Below are positions 7,899-20,969 of a stretch of 64,000 bases of DNA, one piece after another. Every line of letters starts with the position of its first letter. Position 1 is the stretch's first letter. The notes below the pieces were generated by a model, which saw only the letters and a list, made by a program, of their open reading frames with translations, was not told the origin of the DNA and did no database searches. The position numbers and the translations under genes were made by a program. The stretch covers positions 1 through 64,000 of the forward strand of contig NZ_BMXI01000020.1 in assembly GCF_014651675.1 (NCBI RefSeq), given 5' to 3'. The DNA comes from Roseibacillus persicicus. Its GTDB lineage: Bacteria; Verrucomicrobiota; Verrucomicrobiia; Verrucomicrobiales; Akkermansiaceae.

Positions 7899-10800
7899 AT
7901 GAAAAAGCTCCTCCAGTTCCTCACCAGCCTGTTCGTCGCCTTGCTGACGCAGCAGGCCCACGCGGTCCCCAATATCATCATCGAAGGTAGTGATGGTATT
8001 GGTTGGCCAAACATCAGTGACAATGACCTCAACCCCAATCAGGTCGTCACTGACTTCGATAGAGAGTTCTGCAACGAGTCCAAGGACCGAACCTATCGCA
8101 TCCGCAATACCGGAAACCAAACCCTCACGGTTTTCGTAAACGGCAATAGCCCGAGCAGCACCTCTTCCCAGTTTAGTTTCCCGGGTTTTCCTTCCAGCAA
8201 CTTCACGATTGCTGCCGGTTCACAACGGGTATTCACCATCCGCTACACCCCCCTCACCCACGGAACGCGCCAGACAACAATCCGCATCGATAGCAATGAT
8301 CCCGATGCGGAGAGTGTCTACACCTTCGCGGTGGAGGGCGAGGGCCGCTGTGGAGAGGCTTCGGTCTATTACAACCCCACCTCAGGTGGCGACTTGCTCA
8401 CTCTCGACGGTGACAGCACCCCATCGACATCAGCGGGCACGAATTTCGGCTCGGTATCGGTGGGCTCGGATATTGAGCGGGACTTCTACATCCGGAACTC
8501 CAGCGCCGCGCCCGATGTGCTGCGCATCCGCAATCCTCGGCTCACCGGTAGCGGGGCCGCTCACTTCCAAATCGTCAGCCTGGGAACTTCCAACCTGGGA
8601 GTGGGCAACAACCGGAACTTTCAGATTCGTTTCGCCCCGACAAGCGCGGGAACCAAGACGGCCTCCTTTGTCTTCGACAATAACGACGTGGGCGAAAGTC
8701 CTTACAATTTCACCATCACCGGAGTCGGCACCGCCTTTCCCGAAATTTCCCTGGAGGGAAAGCGCGACCAATTTGGCACCACCTTCGACCCCATCACCGA
8801 TGGCCAGAGCGTTCCCAACAGCGCGGACGGAACCCTCTTTGACAACACTGCGGTAGGCAGCTCCCGCGACTCCGTGATCCGCATCCACAACACCGGCAAC
8901 GCGACCCTGACTTTGCAGAACCGCTCCATCACGGGAACCGGCGCAGCCCACTTCGGCACGGTCGGATTTTCCACGGCAAGCATTCCGGCGGGAGGCTCTC
9001 GCGATTTCGATATCCGCTTCACCCCACTGGAGGCCGGGACCCACTCCGCGACCTTTTCCTTTGGCAACAATGACTCCAACGAGAACCCCTTCAACTTCAC
9101 CATTCGCGGCGTGGGAGAAGCTCCCGAAATCCGCATCTCGGGCCGTCCGAACGTGGGCACCGGAGGCTATGACAACATCGCCGATGGCGAGACTACGGTT
9201 CGAACTTCGGAAGGAACAGACTTCGGCAGCGTCCGGGTGAGCAGTGGCTCCAACACCAATGAATTCAAAATCACCAACGACGGAAACGATGGCCTCAACC
9301 TCTCCAATCCCCGCATCACAGGCAGCGGCGCGTCGCACTTCTCCTTCACCGGAGTCAACTCGGCCTTCAACATCGCCGCCGGCAACGACCGCGAGTTCAC
9401 CATCACCTTCAATCCCTCCTCGTTGGGAACCAAGAACGCGACCTTCCTCGTGGACAGCAACGATCCCGATGAACAAACCTACAGCTTCGCCCTGCGGGGA
9501 ATCGGCTTTGGCATTCCTGAAATCCGGGTGCAGGGGCGCCGCGATGTCACCGGAACTTTCCTAACAGAAATCTTCGACAACGACACCTCCCCCCGCAGCA
9601 CGGACGGCACCCTCTTTGCCAATACCGACGTGGGCAGCACCTACAACATGCTGGTTCGGGTTCACAACGATGGCGACGACACCCTCTCGATTGGCAGTCG
9701 CGGCTTCTCCGGCACCGACGCCAATCAGTTCAATACGGCGGGCTTTCCCACCAATGGTTCCATCGCGCCTGGTGGGAGTGTGGACTTCCAGATTCGCTTT
9801 ACCCCGACTTCTTTCGGCACGAAGAACGCCACCTTCACCTTCGCCAATGGCGACTCCAATGAGAACCCTTTCAACTTTGCCATTCAAGCAACGGCGGAAG
9901 CTCCCGAGATTCAAGTCGCCGGTCACCTGCCGGGTGAGGCTTTCCTCGATATCGCGGATGGCGACACCACCCCTCGCGAAGCGGATGGAACGGACTTCGG
10001 CGAAGCCAATGTCACCGGCGTGGGCAATGAAGCCCAGCGCGAGTTCCGGGTCTCCAACCTGGGGAACGTCAATCTGAATATTGAAAGCGGAACGACCATC
10101 ACCGGTCCCGCCGCAGGCGACTACAGCATCTCCGGCCTCTTCGCCGGCAACCCCTTTGTCAATATTGGCGAGGGCAAGACCCAGAACTTCGTCATCACCT
10201 TCGACCCCTCTACCACGGGAGTGCGCAATGCCACGGTCTCTATCGCTAACAACGACCCGGACGAAGATCCCTACACCTTTGCCCTCACTGGGGTTGGAAT
10301 CGGTTCCCCCGAAATCCGGGTGCAGGGCCGCCGCGATGTAATTGGCACCACCCTGACCGAGATCAATGACGGCGATACCACTCCCCGCTCGAACGACGGC
10401 ACTCTCTTTGCGGATACCGAAGTGGGCGACACCTACGAAATGCTGGTGCGCCTTCACAATGATGGTGATGGCGTCCTGAATCTGGGAAACCGCAGCTTCT
10501 CGGGCTCGGGTGCCTCCCAGTTCAATACCGTGGGCTTTCCCGCCAACGGGACCTTGGCGCCCGGGGACAGAATCGACTTCAATATCCGCTTCACCCCCAC
10601 CTCATTCGGGACCAAGACCGCTGTCTTCTCCTTCGGAAATGATGACTCCGATGAGAACCCCTTCAACTTCACCATCGAGGGTAATGCCGAGGCTTCCGAG
10701 ATCGAGGTCCTGGGCCGCGGAGTGGCGAGTCAGTTCGGGCCCATCCTCGACGGCGACAATACGCCTCGGGTTGCCGATGGCACCGACTTTGACACCACCC

Positions 10801-12461
10801 GGGTCGGCTTCGATGAGACCTATCAGTTCCGCATCGACAACTCCGGCAACAAGGTGCTGCGCATCACCAGTCGCCAATTCATTGGCGATACCGAGAACGA
10901 ATTCTCGGTCAGCGGCCTGCTCCCCATCACTGGAGTTCGCACCATTCAGCCCGGTGAGTCCCACTTCTTCAACATCACCTTCGAGCCGAACAATGTGGGG
11001 GTGGAAAACGTGATCTTCGAGCTCCGCAACGATGACCCCGACGAGGATCCCTACACCTTCTCCATGCGAGGCGAAGGCATCGGCGACCCCGAGATTCGCG
11101 TTCGCGGACTCACCTCCACCGGACTCCCCTTTGACATCAGCGACAATGACCTCGACCCCAATCAGGATGTCACCCAATTCGGCACCGTGACCCTCGGCCA
11201 AACCAAGACCCGCAACTACCGGGTCGTCAACGACGGCACTGACACCCTCAGCATCAGCTCCATAGTCAGCAGCGAGCCCGAGTTTACGATCAGCGGCTTG
11301 TCCGCCAATATCCCGGTGGGTGGTAGCGATGACTTCACCATCACCTTCACCCCCACCAGCACGGACGAAGTCGAAACCATCATCACCATTCGCTCAAACG
11401 ACCCCACCGGACGCGACCCCTACACCTTTGCCCTCGTGGGCACGGGTGAAGGGCCCGAGATGGAAGTTCGTGGCGGAGGCTCGACCTTCAGCGAGCTCAT
11501 TAGCGACGGCGACAGCACTCCCCGGAGCGCGGATGGAACCCTCTTCGGCGAAGTGAACCCCAATGGCGGCTCCCTCATCGTCCCCTTCCAAATCCGCAAC
11601 ACCGGCACCACCAACCTGGTCATCAACGACAAGAGCGTGCTTGGCGACCATGCCAGCGACTTCACCATCCGCAGCCTGTCGACCAGTCCGCTGAATGTCA
11701 CCATCGCGCCAGGGGGAACCCGCGAGTTCGAAGTCGAGTTCGACCCTACCGACACAGGAACCCGCAATGCCGTCATCGTGCTGGAAAGCAATGATGCGGA
11801 TGAAGATCCCTATTCCTTCGCGGTGAGAGGTATCGGACAAGACCCTGGTCTTCTGCCCGAAATCCGGGTGGTCTCCAATGCCGGCGGTCTGCTCATTGCC
11901 AACGGCGACAGCTCGCCCCGTCTTTCCGACGGCACCGACTTCGGCACCTTGACCGTGGGAGAGGCCAGCGCGACCCAGAGCTTTGTGATTCACAATGACG
12001 GTGATGCGGACTTGGAAATCTACGGTCTCACCGTGAACAATGCAGTGTATACAAACACCACTCCGGCGACCATTCCTCCCGGCCAGCAGCGTCCCTTCAA
12101 CGTGACCTTGAGCACCGACCTGAGCGGAGTGCAGGATGGCGTAGTCTCCATCTTTAGCAACGACACCACCGCCTCATCCTACACCTTCTCCATCACGGCA
12201 GAGATTGAGGAAGCAACTGGCGCGCTCGCGATTACCGGGTTCGATATCAACGGGAACGACGCCAGTGTGACCTTTACCTCAATTCCGGGCGAAACCTATA
12301 GCATCAAGAAAAGCACAACGCTGGAGGCAAACAGCTGGGTCACTGTTCCTGGCTTCGGAAACATCACCGGCTCCAATTCCCCGCAGACGATCAATTTGCC
12401 CAATATTATCAACCTCCCCACCGACCCCAAAGCGTTCTTCCGCCTCGAGAAGAACCTTTAA
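7899..12461 (+). CDS. giant secreted choice-of-anchor D (ASH) repeat protein
   Basis: A 1520-residue protein with a clear signal peptide (MKKLLQFLTSLFVALLTQQAHA). It carries 11 tandem modules of about 110-130 residues, each opening with a PEIxVxG-like strand, then a D-D-G-D-x-T/S-P segment, F-G-x-V, and a F-x-I-x-F-x-P...G...A-x-F-x-F-x-N-D strand pair. This is the choice-of-anchor D/ASH immunoglobulin-like fold. The Asp-rich turns may bind calcium. The last 80 residues are a different small domain (ALAITGFDINGNDASVTFTS to FFRLEKNL) shared with two other secreted proteins here. Likely a surface or extracellular adhesive or scaffold protein. A strong terminator follows at 12495. Confidence 0.88.
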   Translation: MKKLLQFLTSLFVALLTQQAHAVPNIIIEGSDGIGWPNISDNDLNPNQVVTDFDREFCNESKDRTYRIRNTGNQTLTVFVNGNSPSSTSSQFSFPGFPSSNFTIAAGSQRVFTIRYTPLTHGTRQTTIRIDSNDPDAESVYTFAVEGEGRCGEASVYYNPTSGGDLLTLDGDSTPSTSAGTNFGSVSVGSDIERDFYIRNSSAAPDVLRIRNPRLTGSGAAHFQIVSLGTSNLGVGNNRNFQIRFAPTSAGTKTASFVFDNNDVGESPYNFTITGVGTAFPEISLEGKRDQFGTTFDPITDGQSVPNSADGTLFDNTAVGSSRDSVIRIHNTGNATLTLQNRSITGTGAAHFGTVGFSTASIPAGGSRDFDIRFTPLEAGTHSATFSFGNNDSNENPFNFTIRGVGEAPEIRISGRPNVGTGGYDNIADGETTVRTSEGTDFGSVRVSSGSNTNEFKITNDGNDGLNLSNPRITGSGASHFSFTGVNSAFNIAAGNDREFTITFNPSSLGTKNATFLVDSNDPDEQTYSFALRGIGFGIPEIRVQGRRDVTGTFLTEIFDNDTSPRSTDGTLFANTDVGSTYNMLVRVHNDGDDTLSIGSRGFSGTDANQFNTAGFPTNGSIAPGGSVDFQIRFTPTSFGTKNATFTFANGDSNENPFNFAIQATAEAPEIQVAGHLPGEAFLDIADGDTTPREADGTDFGEANVTGVGNEAQREFRVSNLGNVNLNIESGTTITGPAAGDYSISGLFAGNPFVNIGEGKTQNFVITFDPSTTGVRNATVSIANNDPDEDPYTFALTGVGIGSPEIRVQGRRDVIGTTLTEINDGDTTPRSNDGTLFADTEVGDTYEMLVRLHNDGDGVLNLGNRSFSGSGASQFNTVGFPANGTLAPGDRIDFNIRFTPTSFGTKTAVFSFGNDDSDENPFNFTIEGNAEASEIEVLGRGVASQFGPILDGDNTPRVADGTDFDTTRVGFDETYQFRIDNSGNKVLRITSRQFIGDTENEFSVSGLLPITGVRTIQPGESHFFNITFEPNNVGVENVIFELRNDDPDEDPYTFSMRGEGIGDPEIRVRGLTSTGLPFDISDNDLDPNQDVTQFGTVTLGQTKTRNYRVVNDGTDTLSISSIVSSEPEFTISGLSANIPVGGSDDFTITFTPTSTDEVETIITIRSNDPTGRDPYTFALVGTGEGPEMEVRGGGSTFSELISDGDSTPRSADGTLFGEVNPNGGSLIVPFQIRNTGTTNLVINDKSVLGDHASDFTIRSLSTSPLNVTIAPGGTREFEVEFDPTDTGTRNAVIVLESNDADEDPYSFAVRGIGQDPGLLPEIRVVSNAGGLLIANGDSSPRLSDGTDFGTLTVGEASATQSFVIHNDGDADLEIYGLTVNNAVYTNTTPATIPPGQQRPFNVTLSTDLSGVQDGVVSIFSNDTTASSYTFSITAEIEEATGALAITGFDINGNDASVTFTSIPGETYSIKKSTTLEANSWVTVPGFGNITGSNSPQTINLPNIINLPTDPKAFFRLEKNL

Positions 12462-14636: not shown

Positions 14637-15063
14637 AGGTCTAAAATTTTTGGTCTAAGGATACCAGTTCGCAGCCAAGGTTGAATTGCTTCAGCTTCGA
14701 CGACTTCCATGCCCAAGCGACTTGTCGAAAACTGATTTCACGAATGCGCAGCAAGGATTCCAAGCCAATCCTTACACATACTGTCTTTTCCAATAAAGCT
14801 CTTCATCAAATGCGCTGAACTCTTCTTAAGGAGTAGATTAGATCGAACTTGATTGCCAGCTCCCTATCGACCGTAACTAGTTCGAATAGAGAATCCTCCG
14901 AATTGACGCCTTCCATGCAGGCCCGCTCTCCTTTCTGAGTGAACAAACCAAGGGATCTTGTAACTCATTAATTTGAAGCAAGCTAAAAGAAAACAGTCAA
15001 TTGAAAGCTTTGCCTAAATAAGCTAAGGAGCTTCTTGAAATACATTAGCATATCTATCGGAAA
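14637..15063. other. AT-rich intergenic region before the CRISPR-Cas locus
   Basis: These 427 bases have no convincing open frame on either strand and are clearly richer in A and T than the flanking genes. The ordinary chromosome ends here and the CRISPR locus begins. Apart from the tracrRNA terminator immediately to the right I see no repeat, tRNA or IS end. It may be the remnant of older DNA exchanged with the cas genes. Confidence 0.6.
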
Positions 15064-15150
15064 CAAAAAAAAGGCGGGATACTCCGTAGAGCATTGCCCG
15101 CTAAATCTGATTATTGCTACGAAAAGAACAACAAGCAGTGATCAATTACC
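15064..15150 (-). ncRNA. tracrRNA of the type II-C system
   Basis: On the minus strand, bases 15150-15135 read GGTAATTGATCACTGC. This is a perfect 16-nt complement of the inner part of the CRISPR repeat in leftward orientation. Bases 15121-15116 (CGTAGC) pair with the first six repeat bases (GCTGCG, one G-U), and the 13 bases between can form a loose, wobble-rich bulged duplex. After AATAATCAGATTTA comes the hairpin 15101-15074 (GCGGG...CCCGC with an inner stem around loop TACG) and eight U. The RNA is therefore about 87 nt, with only one hairpin after the anti-repeat, much shorter than the Neisseria tracrRNA. A good promoter lies immediately upstream. Confidence 0.88.
15065..15102 (-). terminator. 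Rho-independent terminator of tracrRNA
   Basis: On the minus strand the sequence AGCGGGCAATGCTC-TACG-GAGTATCCCGCC forms a stem with a small internal bulge. It is followed directly by TTTTTTTT, the complement of A15065-15072. In type II systems this hairpin usually doubles as a Cas9-binding element. Confidence 0.88.
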
Positions 15151-15156
15151 TCGTTC

Positions 15157-15185
15157 AGTTAAGGCTTTATTCTTTCCCTTGTCAA
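15157..15185 (-). promoter_or_regulatory. tracrRNA promoter
   Basis: Minus strand: perfect -35 TTGACA (15185-15180), a 17-bp spacer, and -10 TTAACT (15162-15157, weak). This puts the transcription start at about 15150, exactly the first base of the anti-repeat. It occupies the 52-bp gap to cas9, so tracrRNA and cas9 are divergently transcribed from almost the same segment. Confidence 0.7.
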
Positions 15186-15202
15186 GTTAGAGTCCCTGTT
15201 AG

Positions 15203-18200
15203 ATGAAAAATTATACCCTCGGACTCGACATGGGCGTCGCCTCCCTTGGTTGGGCATGCCTCTCCATAGAAGAAAAGACAATCGACTCTGGTGTTCGTAT
15301 CTTCCCTGCTGGCATGGAAAAAGAACGAGATGCTTACACCTCCAAGAATCTCAAGCGCCGGAGCAAACGTACAGCTCGCCGCCGAGGTTCCCGCAAGGCG
15401 AAGCGCAAGCAACTGATTCGACAGATTCTCATAGAGTTGCAGTGGATCCCCAGTGAAGAATGCGCTCTTCAAGACTGGGAAAATCTCGATCCCTATGAGC
15501 TTCGTCACCGCGCCATCAACGAAAAAATCACTCTCCCCGAATTTGCTCGCGTCATCCTCCATCTCAACCAACGTCGCGGCTTCCTCTCACTTCGCAAAGC
15601 TGAACTCGATGCCGCCGAGGGCGACGACAAGAAAGAACTCGAAGGACTATTGGGCAATATCTCCCGCTTACAAACGCAAATAGACGAAGCCAAACACGAG
15701 ACCCTCGGCAACCACCTCTATCAACTCCGAAAGAAAGAAGGCGGCGAGCACGGCAATACCATTCGACTCCGAGCGCGGCACATCCATCGCCACATGCTCC
15801 ATCATGAGTTTTCCCTCATATGGAGGGAGCAAGCCAAGCACCATCCCGAACTCACCGATACCCTCCGCTACGGAAGCCACGGCCCACAAGATGACCCCAC
15901 CGCCGTCACCAAACCCATTCCCCGCAATAAAACCGAATCTCTCCTACAACAATTCGGCCTCGAAAACCTCACCTTTTTTCAGCGTCGCGTCTATTGGCCC
16001 CTGTCCTCCATCGGCCATTGCGAACTCGAACCAGACGAACTCCGCGCCCCAGTCGCTGATCGCCGCTTTCAAGAGTTTCGCATGCTTCAAGAACTCAACA
16101 ACCTTCGCTACCTTGACCAATCCAGCCCCGGCAAACCCCAAGAGCGCAAACTCAATGATGGAGAGCGGCAAGTTGCCATCACCTATCTCTCGACCACCCA
16201 AAAGCCCACCCTCAAAGCTCTCAAAAAGAAAATCACCAAGCTCCCAGATAGCCCCGAGGAAGCCCACATCACCTTCAACCTCGAAGCCAACAACCGCGAA
16301 AACATCTCCGGCCTCCCCACCGAAAACAAACTCGCCAACACCCTCAAATCCACTTGGCCCAAACTCGACGAAGCGGGCAAGAACCGCATCGTCGAAATTC
16401 TCACCCTACCCGACGACTCCAATTCAGGCAAAGTCATCCAACGCACTGATGACGAGACTCGCGAACTCCTCGAACAAGTCCCCACGCTTTCCCACGACGA
16501 CATTGACAAACTCCTCAAGACCTCCCTCCCCACCGGCTACGGCCACCTCTCTGTCGTCGCGCTAGAAAAGATGCTTCCCCACATGCGCGAAGGAAAACTC
16601 TATCAGGGAAAGAAGGACGAAGACCATCTCTCTGCCCGCCACCTCGCTGGCTATCCCCGACGTGACGAGACCTCTAGTAAATCCTTCGATATCCTTCCTC
16701 ACCTGACCCAGCTCACAAATCCCAGTGACACCTCACACTACGAACCCCATTTTCCACATCTCAACAACCCTCTCGTCCTCCGCGCCCTGCACGAGCTCCG
16801 CAAAGTCGTCAACGCCATCATTCGCAAGCACGGCAAACCAACCGCCATTCACCTTGAAATGGCCCGCGACCTCAAGATGTCTGCCAAGAAACGTGAGGAA
16901 CACGCCAAGAAAACCAAGCAGCACGAAAAAGAACGCACCCGAGCCAAAAACGAACTCGCCAAATACAATGTCGCCCCTACACGTGACGCCATCCTCCTCT
17001 TCCGCCTTTGGGAAGAACAAAACAAAACCTGCATCTACTCGGGCGAGCCCATCAGCGTGCAAGACCTTTTGGGCGGAAATGTTGACATCGACCACATCTA
17101 CCCCCGCCGCGCCAATGACGACTCTTACCTCAACAAGGTCGTCTGCTTTACCGAGCAAAACAGGCTCAAGGGAGACCGCCTCCCTAGCGAGTGGCTGGGC
17201 GAAGGTTCCACCGAATTCGAAGCCCTTGCCCAGCGCGCCCAAGACCTTCCCTACCCCAAACGCAAACGTCTACTTGCGGACAAACTCCCCGATGGATTCG
17301 CCGAGCGCGACGCCGTCGATACTGCCTACATGACCCGTGTCGCCCGACACTACCTCTCCACCCTTTTTCCTAAGAAAGAGGAACACCGAATCTTCTGCAC
17401 CAAGGGCAGACATACAGCTCTCCTCTGCCGTCATTGGCAGCTCAACGATCTCCTCCGCCATGACCTCCTCGATCTCAAGAACCGCGACGACCACCGCCAC
17501 CACGCCCTCGACGCAATCGTCATCGCCGCTTGCGATCGCTCTCTTTTGCAGAAAGTGACCAAGGAACTTAAATACGAAAACCACTGGAAAGACAAACAAG
17601 ACGAAGAATCCAAAGAAAAAATTCGTATCTACCGACTCAAACCCCAGCTCGAAAACCTAGTCTCCCCCTGGCCCGAGTTCCGAGTCGCAGCCGCCGCCTC
17701 ACTCGACGCAATCTGGGTCTCTCATCGGCCCAACCGAAAAGTCTCCGGCCCTCTTCACGAAGAGACAAATTACGGTTCTACGAGTGAACCGGGTATTCTT
17801 GTTAGACGCAAGAGACTCGCCACCCTCTCCGACGGCGAAATCGCAAAAATCCGTGATGTGTCAGTAGCTCATGTCGTTCAGCAATATCTCGAACAAGAGA
17901 AAATTCTCTACCCCGAAGACTTCGGTAAAAAGATGGATGACGATGTGCGGGCTCATTTTGAGAAACACCAAACCCTTACCGAGAGCGACATTCACGCCCT
18001 CGAAACTGACAACCGCAGATTGAAAGGAGACCTCCTCAATAAACTCAAAAAGAAAAATCCTCTCCAAGATGCCGAACTGGGAAAAATCACCCTCCCCAAC
18101 AATAAAGGAGGCGAAGCCATTCCCATCAAGAAAGTCCGCCTGCTTATCCCCAACAAAGCTGCCGTCCCCCTCCGGCCCGACGGCAACGCCAAAGAACTCA

Positions 18201-18625
18201 TCATCCCCGGCAACACCCACCACGTTGCTATCTTCTCCCTTGGCGACGGCAAAAGCCACTTCGAACCCGTTACCCTCCTAGAAGCCAGCCGCCGGAAGCG
18301 AAACGGAGAGGACATCGTCCAAAAGCACTATCCCAATATGCCCCCGGAAGCCGAGTTCCGCTTCCACCTAACTTATAATGATTCAATCACATCGGAAACA
18401 AACAACGAAACTCGACTGTTCATTTTCAAGGGTATTCATTCCATCCAGCTAACTGTGAAGTTTGTCCATCACTGCGATGCGAGACAAAATAATCAAAAGG
18501 ACCCAATAACAGGAAGAGCAGTAAGTATTCAAAAGACCAGCTCACCGAACAGATTTGAAGATAATTTTCCCAATGCCCGCAAAGTAATAGTCCTCCCTTC
18601 TGGAGAAATTCGAGACGTCAACTGA
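15203..18625 (+). CDS. cas9: Cas9 endonuclease, type II-C
   Basis: RNA-guided double-strand DNA nuclease of 1140 residues, within the compact II-C size range. RuvC-I: LGLDMGVASLGW with Asp9. Arg-rich bridge helix at about 49-78. RuvC-II: IHLEMARD with Glu552. HNH: CIYSGEPI, then VDIDHIYPRR with His631 and a downstream LNKVV. RuvC-III: HHALDAIVIAAC with His767 and Asp770. All catalytic residues are present, so it should cut DNA. The C-terminal 250 residues form the wedge and PAM-interacting part; the last 90 codons are much more AT-rich than the rest. cas1 starts 9 bp after the stop. No csn2 or cas4 follows, which fits II-C. The ATG has no obvious ribosome site. Confidence 0.97.
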   Translation: MKNYTLGLDMGVASLGWACLSIEEKTIDSGVRIFPAGMEKERDAYTSKNLKRRSKRTARRRGSRKAKRKQLIRQILIELQWIPSEECALQDWENLDPYELRHRAINEKITLPEFARVILHLNQRRGFLSLRKAELDAAEGDDKKELEGLLGNISRLQTQIDEAKHETLGNHLYQLRKKEGGEHGNTIRLRARHIHRHMLHHEFSLIWREQAKHHPELTDTLRYGSHGPQDDPTAVTKPIPRNKTESLLQQFGLENLTFFQRRVYWPLSSIGHCELEPDELRAPVADRRFQEFRMLQELNNLRYLDQSSPGKPQERKLNDGERQVAITYLSTTQKPTLKALKKKITKLPDSPEEAHITFNLEANNRENISGLPTENKLANTLKSTWPKLDEAGKNRIVEILTLPDDSNSGKVIQRTDDETRELLEQVPTLSHDDIDKLLKTSLPTGYGHLSVVALEKMLPHMREGKLYQGKKDEDHLSARHLAGYPRRDETSSKSFDILPHLTQLTNPSDTSHYEPHFPHLNNPLVLRALHELRKVVNAIIRKHGKPTAIHLEMARDLKMSAKKREEHAKKTKQHEKERTRAKNELAKYNVAPTRDAILLFRLWEEQNKTCIYSGEPISVQDLLGGNVDIDHIYPRRANDDSYLNKVVCFTEQNRLKGDRLPSEWLGEGSTEFEALAQRAQDLPYPKRKRLLADKLPDGFAERDAVDTAYMTRVARHYLSTLFPKKEEHRIFCTKGRHTALLCRHWQLNDLLRHDLLDLKNRDDHRHHALDAIVIAACDRSLLQKVTKELKYENHWKDKQDEESKEKIRIYRLKPQLENLVSPWPEFRVAAAASLDAIWVSHRPNRKVSGPLHEETNYGSTSEPGILVRRKRLATLSDGEIAKIRDVSVAHVVQQYLEQEKILYPEDFGKKMDDDVRAHFEKHQTLTESDIHALETDNRRLKGDLLNKLKKKNPLQDAELGKITLPNNKGGEAIPIKKVRLLIPNKAAVPLRPDGNAKELIIPGNTHHVAIFSLGDGKSHFEPVTLLEASRRKRNGEDIVQKHYPNMPPEAEFRFHLTYNDSITSETNNETRLFIFKGIHSIQLTVKFVHHCDARQNNQKDPITGRAVSIQKTSSPNRFEDNFPNARKVIVLPSGEIRDVN

Positions 18626-18634
18626 GCGCTAGAA

Positions 18635-19564
18635 ATGGTCAAACACACCCTTGAAATCTCCCAGCGGCCTGTTCGTCTCTCCCTTCGTCACCAGCAACTC
18701 GTCATCAAGCTTCCTAACGATGAAGGCGAACGCACCTTCGCCTGCGAAGATATCGGGGTTCTCATTCTCCAGCACCCCGCCATCTCGCTCTCTTCCGCTA
18801 TTCTCCATGCCCTCCTTGAATCCGGGGCCGTTGTCGTTATCTGCAACGACAAACATCTCCCCGCCGGACTCCTCCTCCCCACCCTAACCCACACCGAGCT
18901 GGTCCCCCGCATGATGGCTCAACTCCAAGCCGACCTCCCCGCCCGCAAACAAGCGTGGAAAGCCATCGTCCGCGCTAAAATCACCGCCCAAGCCAGCCTC
19001 CTAGAGGACCCCTTCCGCAAAAAACTCCACACCCTCACTCAAGCTGTCAAATCCGGCGACTCCGAAAACCACGAAGCCCAAGCCGCCCGCATCTACTGGC
19101 CTGCCCTTTTCCCCGACCGATATCAAGAAGGCGACAAACGCGACCCCGCCAGCGAATCCCGCTTCAACGCCCTCCTTAACTACGGCTACGCCATTATGCG
19201 CGCTGCCACAGCCCGCGCCCTCGTATCAGCTGGGCTCCAACCCGCTCTCGGCGTCTTCCACCACAAACGCGACAACCCCTTCTGCCTCGCCGACGACCTC
19301 ATGGAACCCCTGCGTCCCCTCGTCGATTACACTGTTAAACAAATCCTCGCCAGTGAAGAGGACATTCCATCCGCCCTAACCCCTGGAAATCGAAAAGCCC
19401 TTCTCAGCCTCCTTACCCACACCGTCACCCTCAACGGGCAAACCGGCCCCCTCATGGCCGCCCTTCCCCGCTACATCAACAGCTTCCACCGCTTACTCAC
19501 CCGCGAAAGCCAAACCCTCCACTCTCCAGTATTCGAGCCCCAATGGCCTGACGACCCCTTCTAA
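18635..19564 (+). CDS. cas1: Cas1 integrase, type II
   Basis: A 309-residue CRISPR spacer integrase. It begins MVKHTLEISQRPVRLSLRHQ, typical of type II Cas1. The active-site metal ligands are expected at Glu in the AARIYWPALF region near residue 149, His in LGVFHHKRDNPFCLADDLME near 207, and Asp/Glu in the same stretch. With Cas2 it forms the complex that inserts 30-bp spacers into the array downstream. It lies 9 bp after cas9 and 2 bp before cas2, one operon. Codons are strongly C-ending, unlike the last part of cas9. Confidence 0.97.
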   Translation: MVKHTLEISQRPVRLSLRHQQLVIKLPNDEGERTFACEDIGVLILQHPAISLSSAILHALLESGAVVVICNDKHLPAGLLLPTLTHTELVPRMMAQLQADLPARKQAWKAIVRAKITAQASLLEDPFRKKLHTLTQAVKSGDSENHEAQAARIYWPALFPDRYQEGDKRDPASESRFNALLNYGYAIMRAATARALVSAGLQPALGVFHHKRDNPFCLADDLMEPLRPLVDYTVKQILASEEDIPSALTPGNRKALLSLLTHTVTLNGQTGPLMAALPRYINSFHRLLTRESQTLHSPVFEPQWPDDPF

Positions 19565-19566
19565 TT

Positions 19567-19896
19567 ATGGAACTCTCAGCCTACCGAACCATGTGGATCA
19601 TTGTCCTCTTCGACCTCCCTACCGACACAGCGAAAGCGAAAAAACAATATCAGCGCTTCCGCAAGGACCTTCTCGAAGACGGTTTCTCCATGATGCAATA
19701 CTCCGTCTATTATCGCCACTGCGCCAGCAAGGAAAACACCGAAGTCCACCTCGAACGCATCCGCTCTTGTGTGCCACCCGACGGCGAAGTCCGCGTCTGT
19801 CAATTCACCGACAAACAATTCTCCCGCATGGAAGTCTATTTCGGAAAACGCAGAATTAGGACCGAAGACGAGCCAGCACAGCTCGAAATGTTCTAG
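19567..19896 (+). CDS. cas2: Cas2, type II
   Basis: A 109-residue ferredoxin-fold protein starting MELSAYRTMWIIVLFDLPTDTA. It has the conserved Asp after the first strand (VLFDLPT) and the SVYYRHCASKENTEVHLERI segment usual in type II Cas2. It is the structural core of the Cas1-Cas2 spacer-acquisition complex. Its stop lies 47 bp before the first CRISPR repeat, and a hairpin fills most of that gap. Confidence 0.96.
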   Translation: MELSAYRTMWIIVLFDLPTDTAKAKKQYQRFRKDLLEDGFSMMQYSVYYRHCASKENTEVHLERIRSCVPPDGEVRVCQFTDKQFSRMEVYFGKRRIRTEDEPAQLEMF

Positions 19897-19943: not shown

Positions 19944-20969
19944 ATGGTAATTGATCACTGCCTGCAGTCAATCCGCAGCGGTTTTAAAGTCCTTAATAAT
20001 CTGCCGCGCATGGTAATTGATCACTGCCTGCAGTCAATCCGCAGCATAACTCCCCACTTGCTCCAATCGATAGGTATGGTAATTGATCACTGCCTGCAGT
20101 CAATCCGCAGCGCGCTCGTCTTCCGACTTGTGGGCGTGGGTATGGTAATTGATCACTGCCTGCAGTCAATCCGCAGCGAGCGAGCGGTAAGGGTTCACCG
20201 TCTCGTCATGGTAATTGATCACTGCCTGCAGTCAATCCGCAGCGCAGGGGTTTGAGGAGAGTCACTTTCGAGCATGGTAATTGATCACTGCCTGCAGTCA
20301 ATCCGCAGCAGCTCTTCGATGATCACCGAAATATTATGCATGGTAATTGATCACTGCCTGCAGTCAATCCGCAGCAAGATAGGCTAGAACATGGTCCCAC
20401 CGATAATGGTAATTGATCACTGCCTGCAGTCAATCCGCAGCCCTAATTGGTGTTCGGTTAAAGTAATCGCTATGGTAATTGATCACTGCCTGCAGTCAAT
20501 CCGCAGCGGGCCCTGCTAGATCAAGACTGCATTAGTTATGGTAATTGATCACTGCCTGCAGTCAATCCGCAGCAGCGGTCGGATTGCGTCTCTATGCGCG
20601 GGAATGGTAATTGATCACTGCCTGCAGTCAATCCGCAGCACGGCGGCCTTGTCGAGGGTTTCGGTGACCATGGTAATTGATCACTGCCTGCAGTCAATCC
20701 GCAGCGACGACGCTGTGTCCTCCCATCACCCAGGCATGGTAATTGATCACTGCCTGCAGTCAATCCGCAGCGCTCGCGGTCTTCACGCTTTCGGCGCTGT
20801 TATGGTAATTGATCACTGCCTGCAGTCAATCCGCAGCTCGTCGTCCAGGATGACGGGAAGGCCGTAAATGGTAATTGATCACTGCCTGCAGTCAATCCGC
20901 AGCCAGGTTTGAATAACGAATCAATTCCGTCCAATGGTAATTGATCACTGCCTGCAGTCAATCCCGCGG
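19944..20969 (-). CRISPR. type II-C CRISPR array, 16 repeats and 15 spacers
   Basis: Repeats of 36 bp (plus strand starts ATGGTAATTGATCACTGC and ends CTGCAGTCAATCCGCAGC) recur exactly every 66 bp from 19944. All 15 spacers are exactly 30 nt. Fifteen repeats look identical; the sixteenth (20934-20969) is degenerate in its last six bases (CCGCGG instead of CGCAGC). Strand is assigned from tracrRNA pairing: the functional repeat reads leftward, starting GCTGCGGATTGACTGCAG and ending GATCAATTACCAT. In that direction each repeat holds TTGACT-N16-TACCAT, a promoter-like pair ending at the repeat boundary. The 66-bp period creates long stop-free frames that are not genes. Confidence 0.98.

Follow-up and report, generated by a model that had tools for sequence, protein, structure and literature searches.

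A conserved tracrRNA gene of ordinary length with a predicted one-hairpin tail, divergent from cas9, in the type II-C CRISPR-Cas system of Roseibacillus persicicus

Short tracrRNAs are reported from other CRISPR-Cas9 systems, those of type II-C among them. The Campylobacter jejuni tracrRNA occurs in forms of about 74 and 62 nt (Dugar et al., 2013, PMC3656092), the tracrRNA products of Defluviimonas (DfCas9) expressed in E. coli measure 72-83 nt (PMC7708072), and those of C. cellulolyticum (CcCas9), also expressed in E. coli, 70-107 nt (PMC7038990). The crRNAs of C. jejuni are reported to start from promoters in each repeat (PMC3656092), and a promoter in each repeat is likewise attributed to Neisseria meningitidis, by citation, in PMC7038990. 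Regarding structure, a mollicute survey predicted a nexus and a terminator for all of its systems (PMC6882279), the shortest sgRNAs of a 79-ortholog catalogue have two hairpins (PMC7606464), and many predicted tracrRNAs are described as non-canonical in fold (PMC10278012).

The locus analysed here lies in the window, by which we mean the whole 64,000-nucleotide stretch of DNA that was examined, and is an otherwise ordinary type II-C system with the gene order cas9-cas1-cas2-array and the make-up of this type (Table 1). Among the eight ORFs scanned between 12.5 and 26.4 kb (with Pfam, and three also with NCBIfam), cas9, cas1 and cas2 were the sole cas genes, csn2 and cas4 being absent. A protein search of the genome with the window Cas9 returned one match, itself, and its closest solved chains in a phmmer search were Cas9s of about 1055-1154 aa. 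The predicted layout resembles that of Defluviimonas sp. 20V17, in which the tracrRNA gene is upstream of cas9 and the array opposite to the cas genes (PMC7708072), and that of N. meningitidis, whose tracrRNA pairs with the repeat and whose array is also opposite to the cas genes (PMC3936727). The putative tracrRNA is comparably short to that of C. jejuni, which pairs with crRNAs from repeat promoters (PMC3656092), although it is predicted to be slightly longer and to have one tail hairpin. In a search of the literature on tracrRNA in Verrucomicrobi*/Akkermansia type II-C systems, at title level, no title on this system was found.

Computational searches placed on the minus strand, beside cas9, what is almost certainly the tracrRNA gene of this type II-C system, acting by the mechanism proposed below. 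The segment GGTAATTGATCACTGC, read from 15150 on the minus strand, is exactly identical over 16 nt to the plus-strand array repeat, so the tracrRNA would pair with minus-strand repeat transcripts, and it is followed on its 3' side by CGTAGC at 15121-15116. Screening the whole assembly (97% complete, 92 contigs) for the 15-nt core GGTAAYTGATCACTG with at most one mismatch gave 16 occurrences in the array and one in the 15150 region, and the backward control of GGTAAYTGATCACTG had no occurrence in the same assembly. A tracrRNA elsewhere in the genome was considered and rejected, the sole anti-repeat copy outside the array being the one beside cas9; the check for a better candidate elsewhere, suggested in an earlier note made from the letters of the window, found none in the assembly as far as the 15-nt core shows. 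Against Rfam, the whole window at gathering scores yielded only a tRNA, and positions 15000-15250 only a weak mir-315 match (E 7.9).

Table 1. Positions of the tracrRNA gene, its predicted parts and the neighbouring CRISPR-Cas features in the window
Feature	Position	Strand	Basis or description
tracrRNA gene (predicted)	15065..15150	-	86 nt, from predicted start to end of U run; divergent from cas9
-35 box TTGACA	15180..15185	-	sequence; TTGAC in 10/10 family genomes
Weak -10 box TTAACT	15157..15162	-	sequence; 3/6 match to TATAAT
Anti-repeat upper stem, tracrRNA nt 1-19	15132..15150	-	repeat pairing and both-side changes in 8 systems
Anti-repeat lower stem UUCGUAGC; partner is the spacer-proximal repeat end GCUGCGGA	15116..15123	-	co-folding
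14-nt linker AAUAAUCAGAUUUA	15102..15115	-	predicted unpaired in the dimer; site of the nexus hairpin of other tracrRNAs
Single 3' hairpin: 5 bp, 3x1 internal loop, 5 bp, UACG loop	15074..15101	-	shuffle test, covariation
U8 run, completing the intrinsic terminator	15065..15072	-	sequence
cas9	15203..18625	+	1140 aa; TIGR01865, 702 bits; RuvC_III, HNH_4, Cas9_a
cas1	18635..19564	+	309 aa; TIGR03639 type II Cas1, 252 bits
cas2	19567..19896	+	109 aa; TIGR01573
CRISPR array	19944..20969	- (transcription inferred)	16 repeats of 36 nt, 15 spacers of 30 nt

From these elements we infer how the gene would be transcribed, where its transcript would begin, and how it would be trimmed and bound. A sigma-70-type promoter at 15185-15157, with a strong -35 and a weak -10 box, would start minus-strand transcription away from cas9 at 15150 or within a few nt of it, and the hairpin and U8 run at 15101-15065 would end the transcript, for a total length of about 86 nt. 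The 5' half of this RNA would pair with nearly the whole repeat of minus-strand crRNAs, whose promoters probably lie within the individual repeats, as they do in Campylobacter and Neisseria. RNase III would presumably trim the upper duplex, and Cas9 would hold the lower stem, the unpaired linker AAUAAUCAGAUUUA and the one 3' hairpin.

This mechanism supposes that the array is transcribed opposite to the cas genes, a direction suggested by the complementarity of the minus-strand tracrRNA, by a TTGACT-N16-TACCAT motif in the minus-strand reading of the repeat, and by the rule that type II-C arrays generally run opposite to the cas genes (PMC6737040; PMC3936727). A stretch complementary to the repeat exists next to cas9 on the plus strand too, where a tracrRNA running in the cas9 direction might pair with plus-strand array transcripts; this arrangement is highly improbable, since no terminator was found on that strand within 170 nt 3' of the anti-repeat in the window or in the family genome G632, the promoter box and the terminator both suit the minus strand, and it would break with the rule just cited. 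The minus-strand tracrRNA is the reading followed below.

The gene has a promoter and an intrinsic terminator of its own, as judged by sequence. TTGACA-N17-TTAACT, the anti-repeat, a hairpin and eight T, all pointed out in the earlier note, can be read directly on the minus strand with the 17-nt spacing, but the -10 box matches TATAAT at only three of six positions. TTGAC stands 34-36 nt upstream of tracrRNA nt 1 in all ten family genomes that have the gene, a placement reached by 68 of 20000 shuffled upstream sequences, the ten genomes being related and hence not independent; its presence in ten of ten related genomes makes the -35 box credible. The best -10 box is weak in all of them (3-4 of 6 to TATAAT). 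A generic promoter and terminator scan of 14640-15260, whose rules require an uninterrupted short-loop stem for a terminator and a better -10 than is present here for a promoter, reported neither the tracrRNA promoter nor the terminator. The weak -10 and this negative scan weigh against a strong promoter, not against the gene. The computed fold of the terminator hairpin has an energy of -16.4 kcal/mol (z -4.2), and none of 200 shuffles was as stable.

The space between tracrRNA nt 1 and the cas9 start codon is only 37-62 nt in all ten genomes (15151-15202 in the window), so little room that the cas9 promoter probably extends into the tracrRNA gene or sits on its far side. A cas9 leader antisense to the tracrRNA would offer a possible route of autoregulation; a literature search for such antisense autoregulation of tracrRNA by the cas9 leader found no report.

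The computed co-variation of the anti-repeat with the repeat provides further evidence for the tracrRNA. Eight family systems have a readable repeat (six distinct repeats), and over their first 19 pairs 150 of 152 repeat:anti-repeat cells are standard pairs. Both partners have changed in at least one system at positions 6, 7, 8, 16, 18, 19 and 20, and for six of these seven positions the only such system is G841, the most distant one (40% Cas9 identity). The G841 anti-repeat pairs with its own repeat at 16 of 17 positions and with the repeats of the others at 13-14; within the other seven systems, foreign repeats too are paired at 16-17 of 17 positions, which means that this control sets only G841 clearly apart. 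In the co-fold of the window, 31 intermolecular pairs form an 8-bp spacer-proximal lower stem and a long upper duplex that is nearly continuous, broken by small interruptions, meaning that nearly the whole repeat is paired. The 16 bp plus 6 bp proposed in the earlier note understate this pairing; the co-fold contains the one 3' hairpin that had been expected and no large central bulge.

Close Cas9 sequences (E 1e-60 or better) were found in 10 of 260 family genomes, that of the window included, and the other nine are 40-71% identical to the window Cas9, two of them being cut by contig ends (G823, residues 3-637, 65% identity; G805, residues 3-1039, 48% identity). The contigs of these two also end before an array, so they have no repeat and were not co-folded with one. 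In all ten genomes the tracrRNA sits at the same place, upstream of the cas9 start codon and pointing away from cas9, and what the earlier note had proposed for the window, a divergent tracrRNA gene that has a promoter box of its own and one terminator hairpin, is thereby found in the genomes of ten species. From GG to the U run the ten tracrRNAs align with few gaps and a mean column identity of 91%; past the U run the alignment collapses, the 3' flanks being different, and by inspection the 60 nt upstream differ as well, save for TTGAC and the cas9 start. In G841 the start of the tracrRNA was set by hand from a partial match, its U run is interrupted, and its co-fold was cut before the U run. 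G798 has a second Cas9 piece with the start of its own array on another contig (L119), which is outside these counts.

The extent of this conservation bears on whether the segment is a gene or a degenerate repeat copy that the array left behind. Solitary repeats do exist, and G544 has three outside any visible array, but the whole 86 nt are kept in ten genomes, beyond the repeat-like part, and the anti-repeat changes along with the repeat, which leaves a stray copy next to no probability and the tracrRNA gene as our reading. The G544 locus itself (L123, G544:C2:278000-296000) keeps cas9, cas1, cas2 and the whole tracrRNA; no array was seen in it, only single repeats at C2:281100, 287095 and 287558, and the 1280 N in this stretch may conceal one.

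A covariance model of the ten tracrRNAs, built from these same sequences, gives that of the window 116 bits. Over 30 loci, all ten family tracrRNAs scored at least 95 bits, while every one of the 86 other matches with E no higher than 1 (27.7 bits at most) fell in clade loci, those that were placed being in repeats, and there was no match in any of the 20 non-clade loci searched. Run with stricter filters on 384 genomes of the class, the model found three tracrRNAs, none of them new to the set. A scan of genome contigs gave one distant locus, at 28% identity. In a Cas9 tree of 42 rows, with long branches elsewhere, L046, L067 and G823 left out, L047 yielding no protein and no named reference Cas9, the nine included clade members fell on one side of a branch with support of 100/100. 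Within this sample, one Cas9 lineage has the predicted one-hairpin tail as a stable trait.

At 86 nt from its predicted start, close to the 87 nt or so first estimated, the window RNA is of ordinary length for a II-C tracrRNA and not small. The description of it in the earlier note as very short, and much smaller than in Campylobacter, does not hold given the C. jejuni forms of about 74 and 62 nt (PMC3656092), and our comparison corrects the notion that 86 nt is small for this type. What the models describe is a conserved II-C tracrRNA of ordinary length, a known kind of RNA, whose predicted one-hairpin tail is specific to the lineage.

Regarding that tail, the minimum-energy co-folds have one hairpin in seven of the eight clade members, to which G841 adds a weak second, and the tail after the lower stem measures 49-52 nt in the clade (that of G841 without its interrupted U run). 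In 27 other Cas9 loci of the phylum the tail has no hairpin in one, one in four, two in seventeen and three in five, and its length is 55-113 nt, two doubtful cases aside: L045, whose fold has no tail hairpin and pairs the tail with the crRNA, and L060, one of the four with a single hairpin, which a T run had truncated, are probable artefacts, though counted. These loci are listed Cas9 matches rather than a random draw, and the 27 are those co-folded out of 36 non-clade loci fetched; among the rest, no array was recognised in L046, L047, L048 and L065, an N run was taken for an array in L067, no anti-repeat was chosen in L052, L066 and L069, and L072 was off the hand list despite a match. For the comparison tracrRNAs, the strand with a terminator was picked by hand in each case, and the crRNA direction by lower energy. 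By these predictions the window clade is at the short end of tail lengths, only just, and is not alone in its one-hairpin fold. The scaffold had been called unusually simple, which is borne out to the extent that one hairpin in seven of eight members stands against two or three in 22 of the 27 other loci, and qualified by the four of 27 that also have one.

Compared with described guides, the predicted sgRNAs of 26 Nme1Cas9 orthologs have more tail structure than the window RNA, with stem loops at both ends and, between these, one more in 20 orthologs and two more in 6 (PMC9433092). The tail is likewise simple beside the nexus plus terminator of the surveyed mollicute systems (PMC6882279). The clade V (S. 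aureus-like) sgRNAs resemble it in being the shortest of the 79-ortholog catalogue, but they have two post-duplex hairpins, one nexus-like and one larger fold, whereas one is predicted here (PMC7606464). The hairpin itself is conserved: 96 of 100 cells are paired, a share that drops to 42-59% when the pairing is slid. Two pairs have changed on both sides, a modest covariation that 12 of 500 shuffles also attain. A natural and conserved guide scaffold with so simple a predicted tail would serve to find out what parts of the tail are required by a Cas9 of this kind, and toward small orthogonal guides.

No nexus hairpin is predicted between the repeat duplex and the terminator in seven of the eight co-folds, in which the linker is unpaired. 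Since many predicted tracrRNAs depart from the canonical fold, we did not take the missing nexus to exclude membership among the tracrRNAs. The linker AAUAAUCAGAUUUA is nearly invariant across the ten family tracrRNAs. The nexus may have been lost in this lineage, with Cas9 reading the unpaired linker and one hairpin that serves as terminator and whole 3' scaffold, a suggestion that we hold tentatively and rate somewhat below an even chance; if true, the lineage would have a natural minimal tail, about 50 nt long and conserved at Cas9 identities as low as 40%.

The guide RNA of C. jejuni holds a triple helix. The guide of BlCas9 held one as well, which had not been predicted from sequence (PMC11222456), indicating that predicted secondary structure can miss tertiary structure. 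As a refinement of the tracrRNA reading, the chances are about equal for and against a linker that folds into a small nexus-like element (AAU-CAG-AUU, for instance) or makes a tertiary contact missed by folding programs, which would agree with the near invariance of AAUAAUCAGAUUUA, with the BlCas9 precedent and with the weak second hairpin predicted at this place in G841, but no secondary structure is predicted there in the other seven dimers.

In the free tracrRNA (15102-15150) an alternative consensus fold pairs the anti-repeat CUG-UUGUUG with the linker CAAUAA-UCAG, and UUGUUG is kept in nine of the ten tracrRNAs though the opposite repeat varies. A switch in the free tracrRNA is not claimed, the 5' segment having z values of -0.70 to -2.29 in eight sequences, not convincingly beyond shuffles.

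The last repeat copy of the array is altered at its cas-distal end. Searches of the spacers of the window array and of the G721 array against phages, for PAM and array direction, gave no match. Each repeat may carry a -35 plus a -10 box. In 29 of 33 distinct repeats (that of the window and 32 others), read in the crRNA direction, TTG occurs at position 8 or 9, and many of the 33 have, by eye, a -10-like hexamer at the end; kinship of the sequences and the conserved lower stem are other possible causes of this pattern. The consensus repeat of G632 (L039 5011-6829) is identical to that of the window, with Cas9s only about 71% identical. Elsewhere in the window, an ORF of 1520 aa (7899-12461) contains repeated units spaced about 370-390 and 780-790 nt and would, at a guess, encode a repeat-built, perhaps surface, protein.
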